The translations under genes and the position numbers were made by a program. Below, piece by piece: positions 53,619-63,991 of a stretch of 64,000 nt of DNA. This DNA comes from Microvirga lotononidis (lineage in GTDB: Bacteria > Pseudomonadota > Alphaproteobacteria > Rhizobiales > Beijerinckiaceae): assembly GCF_034627025.1 (NCBI RefSeq), contig NZ_CP141048.1, positions 2,058,001 to 2,122,000 on the forward strand, given 5' to 3'. Position 1 is the stretch's first letter; every line of letters starts with the position of its first letter. Under the pieces are notes generated by a model that saw only the letters and a program-made list of their open reading frames with translations, did no database searches and had not been told where the DNA came from.

Positions 53619-55040
53619 ATGATCTCGAGAGAATCGACCTTCGAGCGCGCCGCCTGGATGACGGAGCTGCGTGCGACCCTGGCCCTCGGCTGGCCCCTGG
53701 TTCTTGCAACGATTGCACAGAACGCCCTGATCACGTCCGACGTCATTCTGATGGGCTGGATGGGATCGGACGCCCTGGCGGCGGGTGCGCTCGGCACCAA
53801 TCTCTACTTCGCCTTCCTGATCTTCGGGATCGGCCTCGTCAATGCGACCTCGCCGATGATCGCCGAGGAACTCGGCCGCAAGCGCCATTCCGTCCGCGAG
53901 GTGCGACGCACCGTGCGCCAGGGCTTCTGGGCCTCCGTCACCGTCGCCGTCCCGATTTGGCTCGTGGCCTGGAACGGAGAGGCGATCCTGCTCGCCATCG
54001 GACAGGCGCCCGTCCTCGCCCACAATGCGGGCCAATATATCCGCGCCCTGCAATGGAGCCTTCTGCCGTTCCTGCTCTTCTTGGTGCTGCGCTCGTTCCT
54101 GGCCGCCCTGGAGCGCCCCGGCTGGGCCCTGTTCATCGGCCTGCTCGCCATCCCGGTCAATTTCGGCGCGGCCTATGCGCTGATGTTCGGCGCCCTCGGC
54201 CTGCCGGCTCTTGGGCTCGTCGGGGCGGGTCTCGGCACGGTGATCTCGAGCGCCTTCATGTTCGTGGCGCTCGCCGTAGTGATCGTCCTCCATCCCCGGC
54301 TCAAGCGCTATCATATCTTCGGGCGCTTCTGGCGGCCCGACTGGCCGCGCTATCGCACCCTCTGGCAGATCGGCCTCCCGATTGGCCTGACGCTGATGTT
54401 CGAGGTCACGATCTTCAACGCGGCCGCCATGCTGATGGGCCGGATCGGCGAGAGCGAGCTGGCCGCCCATGCCATTGCCCTGCAGATCGCGTCCTTCTGC
54501 TTCTCCGTCCCGCTCGGCATCGGACAGGCCGTGACGGTGCGTGTGGGCCGCGCCTATGGCGCCCAGGATACGGCAGGCGTCACCCGAGCCGGCTGGACGT
54601 CGTTCGCGCTGGGCACCGGCTTCATGACCGTCACTGCATCGCTCATGCTGTTCGCTCCGCACCTGTTGCTCGGCGTCTTCCTCGACGTGGCCGATCCCAA
54701 GAACGCGCTCGTCATCGATCTGGCGCGCACCTTCCTGGTGGTGGCCGCCATCTTCCAGCTGGTGGACGGCGCGCAGGCGGTCGGGGCCGGAATGCTGCGC
54801 GGGTTGCAGGATACCCGCGTGCCGATGATCTACGCGGCGCTCGGCTATTGGGGCGTGGGCCTGCCGCTTGGCGCGACCCTGGCCTTCGGCACGTCGCTGC
54901 GGGGAGTCGGCATCTGGATCGGGCTGGCCAGCGGGCTCGCCGTCGTGGCCTGCCTGATGCTCTGGCGCTGGGTGCGCCGCGACAGGCTGGGGCTGGTCAC
55001 GGCGACGCCGCGGGACGTTCAGGAGGCGTTCGCGAGCTGA
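53619..55040 (+). CDS. MATE family efflux transporter (NorM-like)
   Basis: A 473-residue inner-membrane exporter with twelve predicted helices in two MATE halves. The first half begins [29 protein letters not shown] and the second near [15 protein letters not shown]. NorM proteins export cationic drugs coupled to Na+ or H+. The start MISRESTF is preferred over an in-frame ATG 21 codons upstream. It is transcribed divergently from the amidoligase gene, and its 3' end overlaps ispH on the other strand by 22 bp. Whether it exports the amidoligase product is open. Confidence 0.9.
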
Positions 55041-55987
55041 GGAACGAGGTGCGAGAGATCCACGGGGGCGAACTGGGCGTCCTCGCGGGTGACGCGCACC
55101 TCCTCCACCGTGAGCCGCCGCCATTGCGCGAGCTGGGCCAGGGCCTCCTGCACCAAATCTTCGGGAGCGGAGGCGCCTGCGGTCAGGCCGATCACGGCGG
55201 CGCCGTCGATGAAGGAGAGCGTCAGGTCCTTCGGATCCTGCATGAGGAGCGCCTGGCGCCCCTCGTTGACGGCCACCTCGCACAGGCGGTTGGTGTTCGA
55301 CGAGTTGCGCGCGCCGCATACGATGATCCGCTCCGCGCGCCTGGCGATCACGCGCACAGCCATCTGCCGGTTCTGCGTCGCATAGCAGATCGTCTTGATG
55401 TCGGGCCCCTGAACGGCCGGAAAGCGCTTCTTCAGGGCCGCGATGATCTCGCGGGTATCGTCGACGGAGAGCGTCGTCTGGGTGATGTAGGCGATGCGCT
55501 CCGGGTTCAGAACCCGAACGGTCAGCGCTTCCGCAACGCTTTCGATCACATGGACGGTACCGTCGATCTGCCCGGTGGTTCCCTCGATCTCCACATGGCC
55601 GCGATGGCCGATGACGATGACCTCGCGGCCGGCTTTGGAATGGCGCTGTCCTTCGAGATGGACGCGGCGCACGAGCGGGCAGGTGGCGTCGAGCACGGAC
55701 AGGCCCCGGCTCGCCGCTTCCCGTTCCACTGCGCGCGAAACGCCGTGGGCGCTGAAGATGGCGACGGCCCCGTCCGGGATGTCCGCCAGATCCTCGACGA
55801 AGATCGCACCCTTGCGCTTCAGGTCTTCCACCACGCGGTCGTTATGCACGATCTCGTGGCGCACATAGACGGGTCTGCCCGTCCGGTCGAGGGCCTCCTC
55901 GACGGCCCGTATGGCGCGTTCGACTCCGGCACAGAAACTGCGCGGGGCGGCGAGCAGAACAGTCAGCGGGGAATGGTCCTGGATCAT
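55019..55987 (-). CDS. ispH: 4-hydroxy-3-methylbut-2-enyl diphosphate reductase IspH (LytB)
   Basis: A 322-residue [4Fe-4S] enzyme for the last step of the MEP isoprenoid pathway, making IPP and DMAPP. The three cluster cysteines sit in RSFCAGVER (Cys19), DATCPLVRR (near 102) and ICYATQNRQ (near 198), and the SSNTNRL substrate motif follows. It is the terminal gene of the squalene/carotenoid operon, linked to hpnE by an ATGA overlap. The placement suggests it supplies C5 units for the pathway, possibly in addition to another ispH copy; this is inference. Confidence 0.95.
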
Positions 55988-57270
55988 GCCGCATTCTCCG
56001 TCTTCAAGGGGCGGTCGCGCGGAGCGGTCTGGCGGCTGCAGCGGACATGCCGCAGCAGGGAGGCGGCGTGCTCGCCTGCCATCACGGCGCTCTCGATGGT
56101 GGCCGGAAGAGAGCCGATCCAGTCTCCGGCCAGGGCGAGGTTAGTCAGAGGCCGCAAGGGAGGCTGCGGGAGCTCCTCGGCAGCTTGGCGGATGGTCGCG
56201 CGTTTCTCCTTCACCACCCGGCTCTCGGGCTGACGACCGGTTTCCGCATCGAGCCCGAGACGGCGCAGGGCCGGCGCGATGTCGCTCCAGATTCTTGCAG
56301 CCACGTCGTCGACATGGTGGTCCATCACCGCATCGGCGGCCGAAACCGTGACGCTCACATGAGAGGGACGGACCAGGGCCCATTGCGCCAGCGTGCCGCT
56401 GAAACCGATGAAGCGCGGGCTCGCCAGGCCCTTCATGCGATAATGCACGTTGAGGATCGGCTCGAAAGAGGTCGGCACGGGCAGCGCGGGAAGAAGCCGC
56501 CCCACCTCGTAGGGCGGCAATGCGAGGATCACGCGGTCTTCGGGGCCGAGCATCACGGTGCGGTCCGGCAGCGCCAACCCGATGACGCGCTCCTGGCTGG
56601 TCAGAAGCCGGCGCAGGCGCTGCCCGGTGTGAACGGCAGCGCCTCTCGCTGTGAGGGTCGCAACAGCGGGCTCGATCAGGTCTTCGCTCAGGCCGTTGCG
56701 CGCCACGAGCAGGCGTCCGGCACCGGGCCGGATGAGCCGCCGCAAGGCGCAGGCGAGGCGCTGCGAGGAGGCCTGCGCGGGGGGCGTATTGAGCACAGCC
56801 ACCGTCAGCGGCTCGATGAGGCTGTCCATGATCGGACGATCGCCGATGATGGACGCGACCGGACAATCCTTCGCGGTGAAGACGAGGCGCAGGATCCGCG
56901 CGAGATCGGGCAGGGTTAGGCCGTGCGGTCGCCGTGAGGGAAACAGCCACGACCAGGGCGAGAGTCCCACCCGTTGGATCTCGCCCGTTCGTCCATCGTA
57001 GAGCGGAAGCCCTTTGGGTTCCGGCTCGAACCAGCGGTCGCGGGCACCGATGACCTCGAGGAGATCGAGCGTACGTCCATTGGCCGTGAACAGCACATGG
57101 GTGCCGTTGTCATGGATGAAGCCGTCGGCAGGCTGCAGGGTCCGGCAGCGTCCGCCCGGCTGCGGCGCGGCCTCGTAGACGACGGCCGCGCCGCCATCGG
57201 CCGTGACGGCGAGCGCAGCGCTCAAGCCGGCGACCCCCGCTCCGACGATATGGGTGCGCCTGACCGTCAT
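55984..57270 (-). CDS. hpnE: Hydroxysqualene dehydroxylase HpnE
   Basis: A 428-residue FAD-dependent desaturase-like enzyme of the squalene-associated type, which reduces hydroxysqualene to squalene. The GAGVAGLSAALA FAD motif (residues 10-21) begins the chain. The later DRVILALPPYEVGRLLP and LALAGDWIGSLPATIESAVMAGEHAA segments (the latter binds FAD near residue 395) are standard. It is coupled to the upstream hpnC-hpnD fusion by ATGA (57267-57270) and to ispH downstream. The operon's HpnC, HpnD and HpnE make squalene from farnesyl diphosphate. Confidence 0.94.
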   Translation of the reverse strand: MTVRRTHIVGAGVAGLSAALAVTADGGAAVVYEAAPQPGGRCRTLQPADGFIHDNGTHVLFTANGRTLDLLEVIGARDRWFEPEPKGLPLYDGRTGEIQRVGLSPWSWLFPSRRPHGLTLPDLARILRLVFTAKDCPVASIIGDRPIMDSLIEPLTVAVLNTPPAQASSQRLACALRRLIRPGAGRLLVARNGLSEDLIEPAVATLTARGAAVHTGQRLRRLLTSQERVIGLALPDRTVMLGPEDRVILALPPYEVGRLLPALPVPTSFEPILNVHYRMKGLASPRFIGFSGTLAQWALVRPSHVSVTVSAADAVMDHHVDDVAARIWSDIAPALRRLGLDAETGRQPESRVVKEKRATIRQAAEELPQPPLRPLTNLALAGDWIGSLPATIESAVMAGEHAASLLRHVRCSRQTAPRDRPLKTENAA

Positions 57271-58925
57271 GCGGGCCTCATGGCGCGGGTGATGAGATGC
57301 AATCGATCGGCCGTGCTCAGGCGCAGCCTGCCCTGACGTCGGCCCCAGCCGCGCGCCTGCAGCCGGTCGAGCACGCGGCGGTAATTCTCCATCATCAGGA
57401 TCGCGGGTTTCAGCGCCCGGCGATCGAGCCGCATGAGGGCTGTATCCGCTGCGGCAAAGCCGGCGCGGGCCTCTTCGGCGAGACTTTCGCAGACACGGGC
57501 GAAGCGTGGATCTGCCACGAGAGTGGCGGCGGGAGCATCGCTCAAACCGAGCTGCGCAAGCCGCGAAAGAGGAACGTAGACCCGCTCGTGGGCCGCGTCC
57601 TCGTCGACGTCGCGCAGGATGTTCACGAGTTGCAGAGTGCGTCCGAGATTGAGGGCGAAGTCGTGAGCGGACGGAGCGCCGAAGATGCGGATCGAGAGCG
57701 CTCCGACGGATCCCGCGACACGGCGGCCATAGAGCCCGAGCTCATAGTCGCTGGCAAGGCGCACGCGATCAGCACTGTCGGTCTCCATGCCGTCGAGCAG
57801 GGCGTGGCATTCCTCCAGGGGCAGCTTGAACAGGGTCGAGGCGCGGGCGAGCTCGCGTCCGATCGGCGTTTCCGGTGCACGGTGCAGCCGGTCGAGCTCG
57901 CGCCGCCATTCGCGCAGGAAGCCCCGTTTCTCGGAAGCAGGCGCGGCGCCGTCGGCAATATCGTCCACCGCGCGACAGAAGGCATAGACGGCATGAATGG
58001 CGCGGCGGCGCTCGGGAGAGAGACTCTGCATGCCGAGGCGAAAGGACGAGCCCGAACGCCGCACGGCCGCGGCGGTCACGCGATGGTCGCGAGGAGAGGG
58101 CCTCCGGATCGTTCCGGGAAGACCGCACAGGAAGGCGACGCAGGCATCCGGCCTGCTCACCTGCACCCGCTCCAGAACCGGATCGGCTTGCCGCAGACGG
58201 CGGCTCAGGCGCCGGGCGAGGGCGATGGTCGCAAGGCTCTGTGCCCGCAGGCGCGCATTCTGCAGATGCTCGGGCAGGGATTGCGCTTGGTCGATCAGCG
58301 CGTCGACCCGGTCGAGCATGGCGTCGAAAACAGCGCGGCGGAGCGCCGTGCGTGAAGGATCGAAGAATGCCGCCTCGGAGCCCGCCGCCAGCATCCACCG
58401 GATCGGGATGTAGATGCGGCCCATCTGCTCGCGATCCTTGCCGCAATCCTGCAGGTGATTGAGGATCTGCAACGCCGTGCAAAGGGCATCCACCGGCCCA
58501 AAGGCGGAGCTGCGCTCCCCGTGAAGCGTCAGCAGGAAGCGGCCGACCGGGTTGGCGGAATAGCGGCAATAATCGATCAGCTCCGCCCAATCGTTGTAGC
58601 GGGCCTTGACTACGTCCTGACGGAAAGCGCGCAGCAGATCGCGGGCCGGGTCTCGTCCGGCCTTGCGCTGTCCGTCGACTTCGTGAAGGCGCGCGGCCCG
58701 TGGAATCGTCGGATCGCCAGCTAAGAGCGCCTGTTCGAGAGCATCGAGGCGCGCCAGCTTCTCGGCCGCTCCGAGATCGGGTGCGTCGGCGATGTCGTCC
58801 GCCATTCGGGCGAAAGCGTAGAAGGCGAGAACGGCATCCCGGTGCTGGCGCGAGAGCACCAGGGAGGCGACCGGAAAGTTCTCGTCGCTCGGTCGCTTCG
58901 TCGTTCCTGAAAGGTCCACGCTCAT
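57267..58925 (-). CDS. Fused squalene/phytoene synthase-type proteins HpnC-HpnD
   Basis: A 552-residue polypeptide containing two complete trans-isoprenyl synthase domains in one frame. Residues 1-275 begin RPSDENFPVASLVLSR, as HpnC does, with Asp-rich motifs DDIAD (Asp43-Asp47) and QDCGKD (Asp160-Asp164). Residues about 285-552 begin VRRSGSSFRLGM, as HpnD does, with DDIAD (Asp321-325) and RDVDED (Asp439-443). In the known route HpnD makes presqualene diphosphate from FPP and HpnC converts it to hydroxysqualene. These are usually separate adjacent genes; here I see no stop or start at the junction. It is coupled to the GT2 gene (ATGA) and to hpnE. Confidence 0.88.
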   Translation of the reverse strand: MSVDLSGTTKRPSDENFPVASLVLSRQHRDAVLAFYAFARMADDIADAPDLGAAEKLARLDALEQALLAGDPTIPRAARLHEVDGQRKAGRDPARDLLRAFRQDVVKARYNDWAELIDYCRYSANPVGRFLLTLHGERSSAFGPVDALCTALQILNHLQDCGKDREQMGRIYIPIRWMLAAGSEAAFFDPSRTALRRAVFDAMLDRVDALIDQAQSLPEHLQNARLRAQSLATIALARRLSRRLRQADPVLERVQVSRPDACVAFLCGLPGTIRRPSPRDHRVTAAAVRRSGSSFRLGMQSLSPERRRAIHAVYAFCRAVDDIADGAAPASEKRGFLREWRRELDRLHRAPETPIGRELARASTLFKLPLEECHALLDGMETDSADRVRLASDYELGLYGRRVAGSVGALSIRIFGAPSAHDFALNLGRTLQLVNILRDVDEDAAHERVYVPLSRLAQLGLSDAPAATLVADPRFARVCESLAEEARAGFAAADTALMRLDRRALKPAILMMENYRRVLDRLQARGWGRRQGRLRLSTADRLHLITRAMRPA

Positions 58926-60034
58926 GGCTTTTCCTCCAGCGGATAAAGCCTTCCTTTCCATCCCGCGAGGCGCGCCTCGCCGATCCGCAGGAGCACGCTC
59001 CACTGGATCGCAAGGCCGACCAGGATGGTGAGGGGATGAAGAGGGATCGACCAAGGGTTTTCCCGCGTCGCGAAGGTCACGAGACTGCGTGCGCCGAGGG
59101 AAAGAAGGGCCGCCCAGGCGAACAGGATGCTGGGCGCAAACGGCAGGAGCAGGAATGGCAGCACATGGCCGCCGAAAAGAAGAACGGTCCAGACCGGCAA
59201 TGCCACCGGTGTCGCCATGCCCTCGTGGGCATTCTTGGCAAAGCCCACCCAGGCCTCGTCGAACCTCGCATACATGCGGCAGGTGGCGAGGCGCTCACCA
59301 GGGACGAGATCCGTCATCAGGCCCTTGCGTCGGAAGAGCCGGGCCAGCTGGATGCCGTCATGGATGCGCGCTCGGATCGCCGCGTGTCCGCCGCTCGCCC
59401 GATAGGCCTCGCGCTCGACAAGCATGAGCTGGCCGCAGGCTGCTCCCAGTCCCGGATCGCGGGAGAGGCGCATGAAGCCGATGGGAAGATAGCCGAGTAG
59501 GAGCAGGTTGATCGTCGGCACCGTCAGCAATTCGCCGGGCGTGATCATGATCTGGCGCGGCACGGCACTGACGAGGCCGGCATCGGTCGCCTGCGCATGG
59601 CCTGCGAGCGAAGCCGCAGCATGAGGGGAAAGACGCACATCCGCATCCACGAAGAGAAAATGCGTGCCCCGTGCGGCCTCGGAGAGATGGTGGCAGGCAT
59701 GGACCTTGCCGGTCCAGCCCTCATCGAGAGCCGGAGCCGCAAGGAGGCGCACGCGGCTGTCGCGGGCCGCATAGGCGCGGACGATATCGGCGGTCGCATC
59801 CGTCGACCCATCGTCCATGACCAGGACTTCGACCGGGACGCCCATGCTGCCGAGCGCCGCTTCGACAGCGGGGCCTATATTCGCCGCCTCGTTGCGCGCC
59901 GGGATGAGGATGGAAACGAGCATGTCTCCCTGCGGCGCCTGGGGCGGCGTCGCGCGCAGGATGCCCAGGTTCATGAGCGCGAGAACGAACGGGATCGCGG
60001 CCAGTGCAAGCAGGACGAGACCGAGCGCCGTCAT
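58922..60034 (-). CDS. Glycosyltransferase family 2 (carotenoid-cluster type)
   Basis: A 370-residue inner-membrane GT2 enzyme. One N-terminal helix (residues about 4-26) precedes the GT-A domain: VSILIPARNEAANIGPAVEAAL, VLVMDDGSTD, and the DADVRLSP metal-binding site near residue 138. Two or three C-terminal helices follow (from about residue 285). In C30 carotenoid operons such GT2 proteins (CrtQ-like) attach a sugar to the acid end of the carotenoid. The sugar donor is unknown. ATGA overlaps join it to the acyltransferase and to hpnC-hpnD. Confidence 0.86.
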   Translation of the reverse strand: MTALGLVLLALAAIPFVLALMNLGILRATPPQAPQGDMLVSILIPARNEAANIGPAVEAALGSMGVPVEVLVMDDGSTDATADIVRAYAARDSRVRLLAAPALDEGWTGKVHACHHLSEAARGTHFLFVDADVRLSPHAAASLAGHAQATDAGLVSAVPRQIMITPGELLTVPTINLLLLGYLPIGFMRLSRDPGLGAACGQLMLVEREAYRASGGHAAIRARIHDGIQLARLFRRKGLMTDLVPGERLATCRMYARFDEAWVGFAKNAHEGMATPVALPVWTVLLFGGHVLPFLLLPFAPSILFAWAALLSLGARSLVTFATRENPWSIPLHPLTILVGLAIQWSVLLRIGEARLAGWKGRLYPLEEKP

Positions 60035-60870
60035 GATGGCCGTCCCTCATGAGACGGATCGAAGGCGCGCCCGCGCAGGGCCGCCGCCAAGCGCCGCCAT
60101 CCGTCGTAGAGGCCGCCAATCCCGGCGCGGCCTTCGAGCACGGCCCGGAATCGGGCCGGGTCTCGGCTCCGCACGTCGGCGCTCAAGCGATCGAGCGTCG
60201 TCGTCAGCTCACCTTCAAGGCGCTTCAGCCGGTCCGAGCGTGCGAGGTTGAGAAGATCCTGTCCGCGCATCGGTGGCCCGAACGCGATGAAGGCTTCTGC
60301 TCCGCGCTCCAGCCAGAAGCCGTACTCGATGGCGAGCGGAAGGACGGTACATCCGGGCGCACGCTCGAGGAGATATGCCACGCCGGGCTTGAGGCCGAGG
60401 GGCCGCTCGCGCACGTCGCCGAAGCGTCCCTGCGCGGTGATCCAGAGCGCGCGATGGGGAACGGAAAGAATCTCCGATCCGGCCTTGAGGAAATCGGCCG
60501 CACCGCGGGGACTTTCGAGATCAACGCCGAAGGCGCCGATGCGGCCGAAGATGCCGTATTGCCTCAGCATTGCGGCATCGATGGGTGCGTAGCTCTCGTA
60601 GGACGGAAGGAAGCGGTCCGCCGCCAGGACGTAGACGGCCGCGTCCCACCAGGCCGGGTGATTGGAATAGACGATGATCGGACCCTGCTGGGGAGCGGCG
60701 GGCATGCCCCATTGGGCGATCCGCAGGGCGTTCATGTGGCGTGTGAAATAGCGCCGGAAGGTCGAGACCATGAAGCGGTGAAGCAAGGCGGAGCGGCGCG
60801 CGATGGGAGAACCTCCCGCGCGACCGGATGAAGAGCGCTCCGTCCCTGCCTTGCCCGTTTCCTGCCTCAA
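60031..60870 (-). CDS. Lysophospholipid-acyltransferase-like (PlsC family) protein
   Basis: A 279-residue acyltransferase. The catalytic NHPAWWD motif (His71, Asp76) has the NHx4D pattern of PlsC enzymes. A second block (GVDLESPRGAADFL, then RALWITAQGRFGDVRERPLG) marks the substrate-binding region. An N-terminal helix leads into the fold. In staphyloxanthin-type pathways an acyltransferase (CrtO) esterifies the sugar; that role is inferred here from operon position. The gene is coupled to crtN-like and GT2 genes by 4-bp overlaps. Confidence 0.86.
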   Translation of the reverse strand: MRQETGKAGTERSSSGRAGGSPIARRSALLHRFMVSTFRRYFTRHMNALRIAQWGMPAAPQQGPIIVYSNHPAWWDAAVYVLAADRFLPSYESYAPIDAAMLRQYGIFGRIGAFGVDLESPRGAADFLKAGSEILSVPHRALWITAQGRFGDVRERPLGLKPGVAYLLERAPGCTVLPLAIEYGFWLERGAEAFIAFGPPMRGQDLLNLARSDRLKRLEGELTTTLDRLSADVRSRDPARFRAVLEGRAGIGGLYDGWRRLAAALRGRAFDPSHEGRPS

Positions 60871-62402
60871 GACACGTTCCGTAGATTCTCGACCTTGCCA
60901 TCCGCATCGAGCGCGTCGGCGGCGATCCAGCCCGACATCATGACCATCGGCATGCCCGGGCCGGGATGGGCTGCCCCGCCAGCCAGGTAAAGGCCACGCA
61001 CTTGCCGGCTGCGGTTGCCCGGCTTGAACGCCCCCATGAACTTGCCATGGCTCGCCAGACCGTAGATGGCGCCGTTGAGCACTTTGTAGCGGTCATGAAT
61101 ATCCTGCGGCGTCAGGTGGTGTTCGACCACGATGCGCTCCTCGAGATCGCTCATGCCGGCCGTGCGTTTCAGCTTGTCGATGATCACCTGCCGATAGGCG
61201 GGAAACATCTGCGACCAGTCATGGTGGGGGCGAAGATAGGGTGTATGGACGAGCACATACAAAGCCTCGCCGCCTTCCGGGGCAACGCTTGGATCGGTGG
61301 CGGAAGGGGCCGCGAGATAGCAGGTCGGGTCGGGCGCGGGCTCACCGCGCCGATAGATGAAGTCGAACTCCTCCTCCGGATCGCGCGAGAACACGAAATC
61401 GTGATGGAGGATATGGTCGTAGCGCTTGTTCAGGCCGAGATAGAGAACCACGCCCGAGCAGGCAGGCTCGAAGTCCTTGCGGGCGTAGTGCTCGCCCACC
61501 TCGCCGCCGACGAGTTCGCGATAGGTGCGGATCGAATCCATGTTGGAGATGACGTTGTCGTAAGGAACGACATCGCCGCTCGCGAGGACGATGCCCGTCA
61601 CCGCCCCGTTCTCGATCTTGAGTGAAGACACCTCGCTGTCGGTCTTGAACGTGGCGCCGAGTTCGGTCGCCAGTTTCGCCAGGGCCTCCGCGACCGCACG
61701 GGTGCCGCCCATGGGATACCACACGCCGTCCGCCGCCTGCATGTGGGCGATGGCGCAGAGCACGGCGGGCGAGCCATAGGGCGACGAGCCGACATATTGC
61801 GTGAAGTGATCGAGCATCTGCGCCAAGCGTTCGTCCTTCACCTTGGATCGGATGGTGCCTGCAACGGACGAACCCATGCGCAGAGACAAAACATCCCGCA
61901 AGGTTGCGGGATTCATGTTGGCGCGGATGTTGATGGTGTCGAAGAGATCCTCCACCGGCTTCCAGAAGAAGAACCGGTTCGAGATGTCGTGAAGATGTGC
62001 GGAGATTTCCTGGAAGCGCCTGTATCCCTCGCCGGCATTCTTTCCGGGCGCAAAGCGATCCATGGTCTCGGCCATGGCGTCGATGTTTTCCTGCAGGTCG
62101 ATCTGGGTGCCGTCGTCGAAGAAGCAGCGCCATTGCGGATCGAGCCGCACGAGGTCGAGATAGTCGGAGAGATTGCGGCCGGCCTCTGCGAAGATGCGCT
62201 CCAGAACCCGCGGCACCGTCAGTATCGTCGGCCCCATGTCGAAGCGAAAGCCGTCACCATGCAGGACCGCCGCCTTGCCGCCGATCCAGGGGTTCTTGTC
62301 ATAGAGGGTGACCTTGTGCCCGCGGGCCGCTGCGACGCAGGCGGCCGCCAATCCGCCCAATCCTCCGCCGATGACCGCAACCGAAGTGCCTTGAGCGTTC
62401 AC
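60867..62402 (-). CDS. CrtN/CrtI family phytoene-type desaturase
   Basis: A 511-residue FAD-dependent carotene desaturase. The FAD-binding start is AVIGGGLGGLAAACVAAARGHKVTLYDKN, shown here as the GGGLGG motif near residues 12-17. The family C-terminus GLYLAGGAAHPGPGMPMVMMSG (near residue 480) is intact. With squalene synthesis genes downstream in the same operon, it is expected to desaturate squalene (C30) rather than phytoene (C40), by analogy with the CrtN-type enzymes of Methylorubrum and planctomycetes. Whether it is a CrtN-like dehydrogenase or a CrtP-like oxidase cannot be told from sequence alone. Confidence 0.9.
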   Translation of the reverse strand: MNAQGTSVAVIGGGLGGLAAACVAAARGHKVTLYDKNPWIGGKAAVLHGDGFRFDMGPTILTVPRVLERIFAEAGRNLSDYLDLVRLDPQWRCFFDDGTQIDLQENIDAMAETMDRFAPGKNAGEGYRRFQEISAHLHDISNRFFFWKPVEDLFDTINIRANMNPATLRDVLSLRMGSSVAGTIRSKVKDERLAQMLDHFTQYVGSSPYGSPAVLCAIAHMQAADGVWYPMGGTRAVAEALAKLATELGATFKTDSEVSSLKIENGAVTGIVLASGDVVPYDNVISNMDSIRTYRELVGGEVGEHYARKDFEPACSGVVLYLGLNKRYDHILHHDFVFSRDPEEEFDFIYRRGEPAPDPTCYLAAPSATDPSVAPEGGEALYVLVHTPYLRPHHDWSQMFPAYRQVIIDKLKRTAGMSDLEERIVVEHHLTPQDIHDRYKVLNGAIYGLASHGKFMGAFKPGNRSRQVRGLYLAGGAAHPGPGMPMVMMSGWIAADALDADGKVENLRNVS

Positions 62403-62483: not shown

Positions 62484-63578
62484 TCAAGACGGATCACGAA
62501 GGATTGGGCGGCGGGCGCAGATCATGCGGAGCGAGTGCCGGCCGGGCGCGCGGATCACCGGACCGAACCCGGCGGCGGCCAGGAGGGGCATCAGGTGGTG
62601 CACGGCGCGCGTATTGCCGCCCCAGAGCAGGTTCTTCAGCCGGTTGACGGCGGAGACCGTTCCGCCGCCTTCCTGGGCCAGGGCGGCCACGAGAAGCCAT
62701 CCTCCCGGCCGCAACGCCCGGAAGATCCGCTCGATGGCCTCCCGGATGATTGCATCCGGCAGGAACATCTGCGGCAGGAAAGCGAGGTCGAAGGCCCGCT
62801 CGTCGACCAGGTCCTCCGCGCGCTGCCGGCGCATGACGACACGATCCTCCAGCCCGGCTTCCCGCACATGGCGTTCGCCGATCTCGGCCGGATGCGGCGC
62901 GGGCTCGAGGGCCACGGCCTTCAGATGAGGAAAATGCCTGCAGAGCACAATCGAAAGACCCGCGGCTCCCGCGCCCACGTCGAGAAGGGCCGCGCCGGGT
63001 TTCTCGAGGCGCGGGACGAGGCCCGGCAGGAATTTCAGTTTCGGCAGGGCCCGGGTAGTCCAGAGCCGGGTCAGGGTGCCCTGGGACTCGATGATGGCGT
63101 CGTCCGTATGGGTCCAGCCATCGAGGGACAGCCTGCGGTCGGCGAGGTTGCGCCGGAAGCTGTCGGCCTGAAGGAGAGGAGCCCGCAGCGACGCACGGAA
63201 GGTCGCCACGCCCTCGGGGGTCGTGAAAGGCATGAGGGCAGGGGCCGCCTGCACCCGGTCCTGCTCCCACACCACGAACCTGTGGCTGGCGAGCACGTCG
63301 ATCAGCGTCCGGACAAGCGCTGGCGACAGCGAGGCGGCGTCCGCCAGCGTGTCGATCGTCGCCGGCTTGTCGAGATGGGCGAGAAGACCTGTCTCGGCGC
63401 AGGCCGAGAGGGCGCTCGCCGACCAGATGGCCGTGTCGGCCTCTTCGAGCACCTTCAGCACGTCGCCCGTTCGCTGGAACGACGGAGCGGCCGGACCGTG
63501 CCAGGACGGCAGGCCGATGGAGCCGAGGCCTATGCGGTCTCCCCCGTGGGACAGAAGAGCATAGGCGCGCCACAGCAT
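62484..63578 (-). CDS. SAM-dependent methyltransferase with N-terminal winged-helix dimerisation domain (O-methyltransferase type)
   Basis: A 364-residue protein. The N-terminal part is a winged-helix dimerisation domain (SALSACAETGLLAHLDKPATIDTLADAA), and the C-terminal Rossmann fold has the SAM motif LDVGAGAAG (near residue 200), followed by VALEPAP. It resembles CrtF/hydroxyneurosporene and acetylserotonin O-methyltransferases. In this cluster it may methylate a carotenoid hydroxyl or carboxyl group, which is inference. It ends 81 bp before crtN and begins 8 bp after the DUF2141 stop. Confidence 0.85.
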   Translation of the reverse strand: MLWRAYALLSHGGDRIGLGSIGLPSWHGPAAPSFQRTGDVLKVLEEADTAIWSASALSACAETGLLAHLDKPATIDTLADAASLSPALVRTLIDVLASHRFVVWEQDRVQAAPALMPFTTPEGVATFRASLRAPLLQADSFRRNLADRRLSLDGWTHTDDAIIESQGTLTRLWTTRALPKLKFLPGLVPRLEKPGAALLDVGAGAAGLSIVLCRHFPHLKAVALEPAPHPAEIGERHVREAGLEDRVVMRRQRAEDLVDERAFDLAFLPQMFLPDAIIREAIERIFRALRPGGWLLVAALAQEGGGTVSAVNRLKNLLWGGNTRAVHHLMPLLAAAGFGPVIRAPGRHSLRMICARRPILRDPS

Positions 63579-63586
63579 GGGGACCT

Positions 63587-63991
63587 CTATCGGATCGGGA
63601 TTACGACGGTCGTCGCAGGCTCCCTGACGACGATGCGGGCGGCGTCGAAATTCGGAGGTCCGCGGCGGCCCACATCGTTCGAGAACCCGTAGGGTTCGCT
63701 CGGAAGGCCGATGAGGTTGCGGTCGAGCTTGCCGTTGCCGTTCACGTCATGAAAAACCGCAATGGCATAGGCGCCCGGCTTCACGTTCCTGATGCGCAGC
63801 TCCACGGTTGCTGCCGTGGCTTGGCCGCGGTCCTTGTAGGGGCAGGTGGACTCCTCGAAGCTGGTGTCGCAGACCCCGGCATAGACCATGTTCCCGTCCG
63901 GCTGAACGCCCTGTGCGCGGATCGTCAGCGTTGCCGCGTGGGCGGATGAGACGGAAAGGAGAAGAAAAGCGGTCAGTCCAGCGCGTCTCAT
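63587..63991 (-). CDS. DUF2141 domain-containing exported protein
   Basis: A 134-residue protein with a signal peptide (residues 1-19, ending AHAA) and a compact DUF2141 beta-sandwich: LTIRAQGVQPDGNMVYAGVCD, GAYAIAVFHDVNGNGKLDRNLIG and GFSNDVGRRGPPNF are the hallmarks. The DVNGNGKLD segment looks like a calcium-binding loop. DUF2141 proteins are periplasmic and of unknown role, but they recur beside carotenoid genes of Methylobacterium-like bacteria. It is the first visible gene of the cluster; the remaining 9 bp to the window end are non-coding or upstream. Confidence 0.87.
   Translation of the reverse strand: MRRAGLTAFLLLSVSSAHAATLTIRAQGVQPDGNMVYAGVCDTSFEESTCPYKDRGQATAATVELRIRNVKPGAYAIAVFHDVNGNGKLDRNLIGLPSEPYGFSNDVGRRGPPNFDAARIVVREPATTVVIPIR

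Follow-up and report, generated by a model that had tools for sequence, protein, structure and literature searches.

An in-frame fusion of hpnC and hpnD within a carotenoid-type gene run of Microvirga lotononidis

In the genome of Microvirga lotononidis (assembly GCF_034627025.1) we analysed a 64,000-nt stretch of DNA (contig NZ_CP141048.1, positions 2,058,001 to 2,122,000; hereafter the window) and found in it a gene, hpnCD, that encodes a genuine single-polypeptide fusion of a complete HpnC followed by a complete HpnD. We consider it probable (roughly 85%) that the fused two-domain enzyme converts two molecules of farnesyl diphosphate (FPP) to hydroxysqualene and so feeds the synthesis of a glycosylated, acylated C30 carotenoid. 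As a kind, the hpnCD fusion is already known, and the window gene is mainly a well-documented new example; what is new here is that the fused gene sits within a carotenoid-type run, that it is conserved in the genus and that split copies exist alongside it.

The hpnCD gene is a single open frame of 552 codons on the minus strand (57267..58925), with an ATG start at 58925 and a TGA stop ending at 57267; all further features given by window position lie on the same strand. The plus-strand reading of 57267..58925 was interrupted by stops in the frame tried. A ribosome-binding-site-like GGAGG (58933..58937), read from the sequence, lies 7 nt upstream of the ATG. NCBIfam profiles placed HpnC at residues 11–266 (58128..58895; TIGR03464, 356.9 bits vs. 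a curated equivalog cut-off of 250.45, profile positions 3–263 of 267) and HpnD at residues 288–548 (57282..58064; TIGR03465, 341.7 bits vs. a cut-off of 278.6, profile positions 2–264 of 267), with a linker of residues 267–287 (58065..58127) between the two matches. The Pfam family SQS_PSY (PF00494) matched the protein in two stretches, scoring 197.8 and 181.4 bits for the two halves, and TIGR01559 gave just 26.1 bits vs. its cut-off of 286.75. Paired Asp motifs are a hallmark of the HpnC and of the HpnD families. The HpnC half carries DDIAD (residues 43–47, 58785..58799) and DCGKD (residues 160–164, 58434..58448), and the HpnD half DDIAD (residues 321–325, 57951..57965) and DVDED (residues 439–443, 57597..57611). 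Across 92 aligned fused proteins, hand-picked from the 240 matches listed, Asp 43, 44, 47, 160, 164, 321, 325 and 443 were present in all 92, Asp 322 in 91 and Asp 439 in 90. Profiles that we built from 26 separate HpnC and 23 separate HpnD proteins covered both halves almost end to end, leaving a gap of 14 residues in the window protein and of 7–20 residues over 52 distinct fused frames; the fusion thus consists of two full-length enzymes joined by a short linker. A preliminary description of this DNA had proposed such a frame, without naming its strand, as well as the order of the two synthase domains and the residues of the four motifs, and all of these proved correct, also by comparison with the separate proteins.

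The same single, unbroken frame was present in 31 of 55 loci in named genomes, which makes a sequencing error very unlikely, and in 25 of the 37 same-genus genomes searched whole, the M. lotononidis genome included (the two sets overlap, and their counts are not independent). The intact loci belonged to 27 Microvirga, one Salinarimonas metagenome-assembled genome (MAG), Roseomonas oleicola, Falsiroseomonas tokyonensis and one MAG labelled Frigidibacter, and the closest named relatives among the matches listed were Microvirga species with up to 89–90% identity. The other 24 loci held one broken copy (Microvirga vignae), separate genes or partial matches. Among the remaining 12 genomes of the genus, one had a broken frame, one a 3′ fragment, one separate genes only, one a weak other match and eight none; in the same search, 0 of 24 genomes outside the genus gave an unbroken two-domain match. 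The junction was compared over 32 distinct fused frames from Microvirga and Salinarimonas, picked for being fused, with the broken M. vignae frame (L061) omitted. Residues 258–306 varied in length by at most one residue, and the ratio of non-synonymous to synonymous polymorphism (pN/pS) was 0.63 in the linker (residues 267–287) vs. 0.35 in HpnC and 0.27 in HpnD; substitution in the linker is coding-type but relaxed. Nothing that we found spoke for an assembly or frameshift artefact having joined two genes, and the recurrence of the frame in relatives, together with the coding-type pattern across the junction, rules this explanation out with next to no residual doubt. The expectation that close genomes would share the frame and that the junction would be free of a frameshift was thus borne out.

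Possible internal starts were found as an ATG at residue 299 (30 of 32 frames) and a GTG at residue 288 (25 of 32), both falling at or within the HpnD domain. A Shine-Dalgarno-like word within codons 255–300 occurred in one of the 32 frames, namely the window's own, where GGAGG at codons 274–275 stands 21 nt before an in-frame GTG at codon 283. As this spacing is beyond the usual start distance, and both common starts lie at or inside HpnD, production of a separate HpnD by internal initiation appears unlikely.

Fused frames also occur more widely in the class. At least 14 of 384 other genomes surveyed, from six families (f40, f77, f147, f149, f158 and f59), had one unbroken two-domain match, a lower bound given that at most three candidates were scored per genome; one further match ran off its contig. 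The domain order was C-then-D in all 52 distinct fused frames, drawn from 96 fused open reading frame (ORF) records, two of the 52 being incomplete because of a contig end or a broken frame. No HpnD-first order was seen among these records, although the query was itself C-then-D and the reverse order could be missed. The preliminary description had remarked that HpnC comes first, opposite to the order of the reactions; little meaning can be attached to this, as the order equals the common cluster order hpnC-hpnD-hpnE (PMC5462960; this and the other articles cited by PMC number were consulted in part, and statements about them apply to those parts). Neither does its view stand that alphaproteobacterial hpnC and hpnD are known only as separate genes. 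Fused hpnCD genes have been published for Acidobacteria SD2, Actinobacteria (Actinopolyspora, Blastococcus) and Rhodospirillum centenum (PMC5462960), and names in public records already include 'putative fusion protein of y4aC and y4aD' and 'squalene synthase HpnD/squalene synthase HpnC'. Like the window gene, the published fusions combine hpnC with hpnD in a gene roughly twice the size of a single one, with HpnC first in the SD2 proteins; they come, however, from a study of hopanoid genes, whereas the window gene lies in a C30-carotenoid-type run of a genome with no cyclase match, and the two are likened by description only. An account of this fusion in Microvirga was not found in the literature, among the matches listed.

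The genes around hpnCD form a tight run. Six genes, in the order CrtI-family, acyltransferase-like, glycosyltransferase, hpnCD, HpnE-like and ispH, are joined by five successive 4-nt overlaps (one TTGA, four ATGA). Upstream of hpnCD lie a family 2 glycosyltransferase (58922..60034; PF00535, ATGA overlap with hpnCD), which the CruG and HpnB models matched under cut-off, an acyltransferase-like gene (60031..60870), named only from its position and analogy with META1p3664 of Methylobacterium extorquens, and a CrtI-family desaturase/oxidase (60867..62402; TIGR02734, 414.6 bits, cut-off 238.1). Downstream follow an hpnE-like, amine-oxidase-type gene (55984..57270; ATGA overlap with hpnCD) and ispH (55019..55987; TIGR00216, 297 bits, ATGA overlap with hpnE). 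A methyltransferase-domain gene (62484..63578; PF13649) and a DUF2141 gene (63587..63991; PF09912) belong to the same run and were seen in only some of the relatives' loci. A second CrtI-family gene of the run stands just outside the window, and these are the genome's two CrtI-family genes over cut-off. No promoter was found by a scan of the run, and the number of terminator-like sites in it was near expectation. The six-gene order was kept in 28 of 28 intact loci from 27 Microvirga and the Salinarimonas MAG (L031–L058), and the order without ispH in view in the three others (L059, L060 and L062, from Roseomonas, Falsiroseomonas and the MAG labelled Frigidibacter); the acyltransferase-like gene was present in 31/31, and the stretches of 22 of the 28 loci, and of all three others, also showed the second CrtI gene. 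There are two ispH copies in the genome, one in the run and one at G000:C1:3070906-3071754; the copy in the run, so placed in all 28 Microvirga/Salinarimonas loci, is perhaps a dedicated supply step.

Two damaged loci were also noted. In M. vignae (L061/L151; G018) the fused frame breaks near residue 424, not at the junction, the HpnE frame next to it is fragmented, and only short remnants of the glycosyltransferase and CrtI genes were seen, which points either to a decaying operon or to a poor assembly. In Microvirga sp. KLBC 81 (L084) only the HpnD end (query residues 462–552) was found, amid CrtI, HpnE and ispH genes.

By analogy, the run looks like a C30-carotenoid operon, of which HpnC/HpnD, CrtI-family and glycosyltransferase parts were found, the CrtN/CrtP and acyltransferase identities being putative. 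The reactions of the fused enzyme may be assigned after Pan et al. (2015), as summarised in PMC5462960. The C-terminal HpnD half would condense two FPP to presqualene diphosphate, which the N-terminal HpnC half would convert to hydroxysqualene, and the HpnE-like neighbour would finish squalene. The two CrtI-family enzymes, the glycosyltransferase and the acyltransferase-like protein could then turn squalene into a glycosylated, acylated C30 carotenoid, as in M. extorquens. The META1p1815/1816 proteins of M. extorquens AM1 belong to the same two families and presumably carry out the same two reactions; there, HpnC and HpnD are encoded by two genes beside shc, the squalene-hopene cyclase gene, and serve both hopanoids and the carotenoid (PMC10448405), while those of the window are fused. 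In that strain, deletion of a glycosyltransferase gene and an acyltransferase gene altered the C30 carotenoid, and raised hpnC/hpnD led to a higher titre of it (PMC10448405). Its tailoring genes (META1p3663 glycosyltransferase, 3664 acyltransferase, 3665 CrtP and 3670 CrtN) are of the same kinds as those of the window run; they stand at a separate locus from hpnCDE, whereas those of the window share one run with hpnCD, hpnE and ispH. An association of hpn genes with carotenoids is also seen in Azospirillum brasilense (hpnCDE and crtNPOQ; PMC13274349), at two loci, unlike the one run of the window, and in Palleronia sp. LCG004, whose 'crtIP and hpnCD' cluster (PMC11638410) holds hpn and crt genes together, as in the window; in Palleronia sediminis (L067), unlike in the window, hpnC and hpnD are separate. 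A gene run as compact as that of the window may help in making C30 carotenoids.

HpnC and HpnD are classical hopanoid enzymes, and the fused enzyme might accordingly be thought to serve hopanoids, not carotenoids, in this strain. In the M. lotononidis genome (G000), TIGR01507 gave no match to a squalene-hopene cyclase at E 0.001, a search with the fused protein gave no further match, and no second protein was seen to reach the cut-off for HpnC or HpnD. With neither a cyclase match nor another HpnC or HpnD over cut-off, the fused gene likely serves to provide squalene for carotenoids; the carotenoid-type run, found in 31/31 intact loci of close relatives, also argues against a hopanoid role here, which we regard as very unlikely. 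Across the genus, a hopene cyclase over the TIGR01507 cut-off was found in 5 of 48 genomes. Genomes G007, G012 and G070 have separate hpnC and hpnD with an HpnE-like gene beside the cyclase, and G007 holds both a fused copy in the carotenoid-type run and these split copies. In G001 (L149, 1747-4793), the stretch read showed shc after hpnD but neither hpnC nor hpnE. In G036 (L147), no hpnC, hpnD or hpnE was seen within the 19 kb read around the hopene cyclase.

Several observations weigh against the proposed route to a carotenoid and are taken together here. G036 has a cyclase and, as its only HpnC/HpnD match, the fused gene, which suggests that the fused enzyme can supply a cyclase too; the fusion is therefore probably not restricted to carotenoids throughout the genus. 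Other alphaproteobacterial fusions can sit near shc as well: among the at least 14 found in the survey, shc lay in the fetched stretch of six (L123, L125, L129, L130, L131 and L133), a CrtI gene in that of two (L124 and L126), and neither in six. The other SQS_PSY protein of the M. lotononidis genome (G000:C1:4815006-4815773, L086) scores 220 bits with PF00494, more than either half of the fusion, so that some role for it is conceivable. This protein has 280 aa and a single DxxxD word, and it reaches 77.3 vs. 250.45 bits for HpnC and 137.2 vs. 278.6 for HpnD; it resembles the NDUFAF6-type family and is encoded next to a gene that looks like secF. Within the run, the HpnE-like neighbour scores 243.9 bits with TIGR03467, under the curated cut-off of 283.05, and is therefore named by its best family and position, and searches at E 1e-5 found neither a Pfam nor an NCBIfam family for the acyltransferase-like gene. 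The likeness of the tailoring genes to those of M. extorquens AM1 is one of gene type alone. Hopanoids have been detected in Microvirga massiliensis (PMC12583986), and no carotenoid measurement for any Microvirga was seen in the literature consulted. In the light of G036 and M. massiliensis, we argue the carotenoid role for the M. lotononidis genome, not for the whole genus. What was a remark in a 2017 paper becomes a test case, with G007 (fused and split copies) and G036 (fused copy alone with a cyclase) as natural pairs for an effect on flux.

As to how the fused state arose, trees were built from 35 fused and 21 split rows, selected from the 96 fused and 103 single-gene ORF records (many of them repeats) and 11 listed proteins. 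The concatenated tree was computed without five long-branch rows (L140, L138 and P0193, fused; L106 and L107, split). There, the Microvirga fusions fall into a lineage of 25 rows (support 93, not starred) that spans several families and also holds fused proteins from Salinarimonas, Roseomonas-type and other sources; the split copies of Microvirga lie outside it. All trees were quick searches, and both groups constrained in the tests below were defined post hoc, with a tree already at hand. A recent fusion from Microvirga's own hopanoid hpnC and hpnD, represented by constraining the fused and split Microvirga rows together, was rejected (approximately unbiased test, p 5.8e-60). Placing every fused row of the concatenated tree (32 in all) in a single clade was likewise rejected (p 0.00067), indicating that the fused state changed more than once. 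The single-gene trees were weaker, their starred branches forcing only two changes for HpnC and one for HpnD. Such counts cannot separate gain from loss, and three changes may equal one gain and two losses.

These results bear on the question of whether the fusion confers anything at all. It may have arisen by loss of a stop between adjacent genes and been kept as harmless, with no kinetic or regulatory benefit, an explanation compatible with the carotenoid route. Five hpnC/hpnD pairs (L132, L135, L136, L137 and L139) are separate but in the same reading frame with one stop codon between them, and on the trees fused states are interspersed with split ones, in keeping with such a neutral origin; on the other hand, the spread of the window's fused lineage over several families and the nearly constant linker length in the genus are less readily reconciled with it. 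We rate a neutral fusion as a real possibility, somewhat short of an even chance. A bolder proposal is that an old, carotenoid-dedicated fusion travels with a self-contained operon leading from FPP to a glycosylated C30 carotenoid among distant Alphaproteobacteria, hands over presqualene diphosphate between the two sites of its fixed body and separates pigment from hopanoid flux where split copies persist; this we hold to be improbable. For the enzyme feeding the carotenoid route, the fusion would most simply provide equal amounts of both halves in one folded body.

AlphaFold2 gave a model of the window protein (predicted local distance difference test (pLDDT) 91.8, predicted template modelling score (pTM) 0.89), in which pLDDT block means were 82–92 over residues 261–300, spanning the linker. 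A protein of another fused lineage was modelled with a pTM of 0.90 from an alignment that held some window-lineage proteins, and for both proteins a fixed two-domain body is predicted. Such a body, together with the short linker, would suit channelling, the transfer of presqualene diphosphate from the HpnD to the HpnC site apart from the bulk pool, which would be compatible with the carotenoid route. Yet Z. mobilis and R. palustris have HpnC and HpnD as functional separate proteins (Pan et al., 2015, via PMC5462960), and the C-D order simply reproduces the common gene order; we hold channelling to be doubtful. The single-domain squalene synthases of eukaryotes and some bacteria share the fold and make squalene from FPP, but in them one active site performs the two steps and no HpnE is involved (PMC5462960), whereas the window system has two domains and a separate HpnE-like protein. 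PDB matches of the window model covered one domain, except for certain squalene synthases: the human, Trypanosoma and Aspergillus enzymes aligned from residue 8–10 up to residue 354–362 at the farthest (about 255–282 residues), reaching the HpnD half. With the second model, the same squalene synthases aligned inside the HpnD half only.

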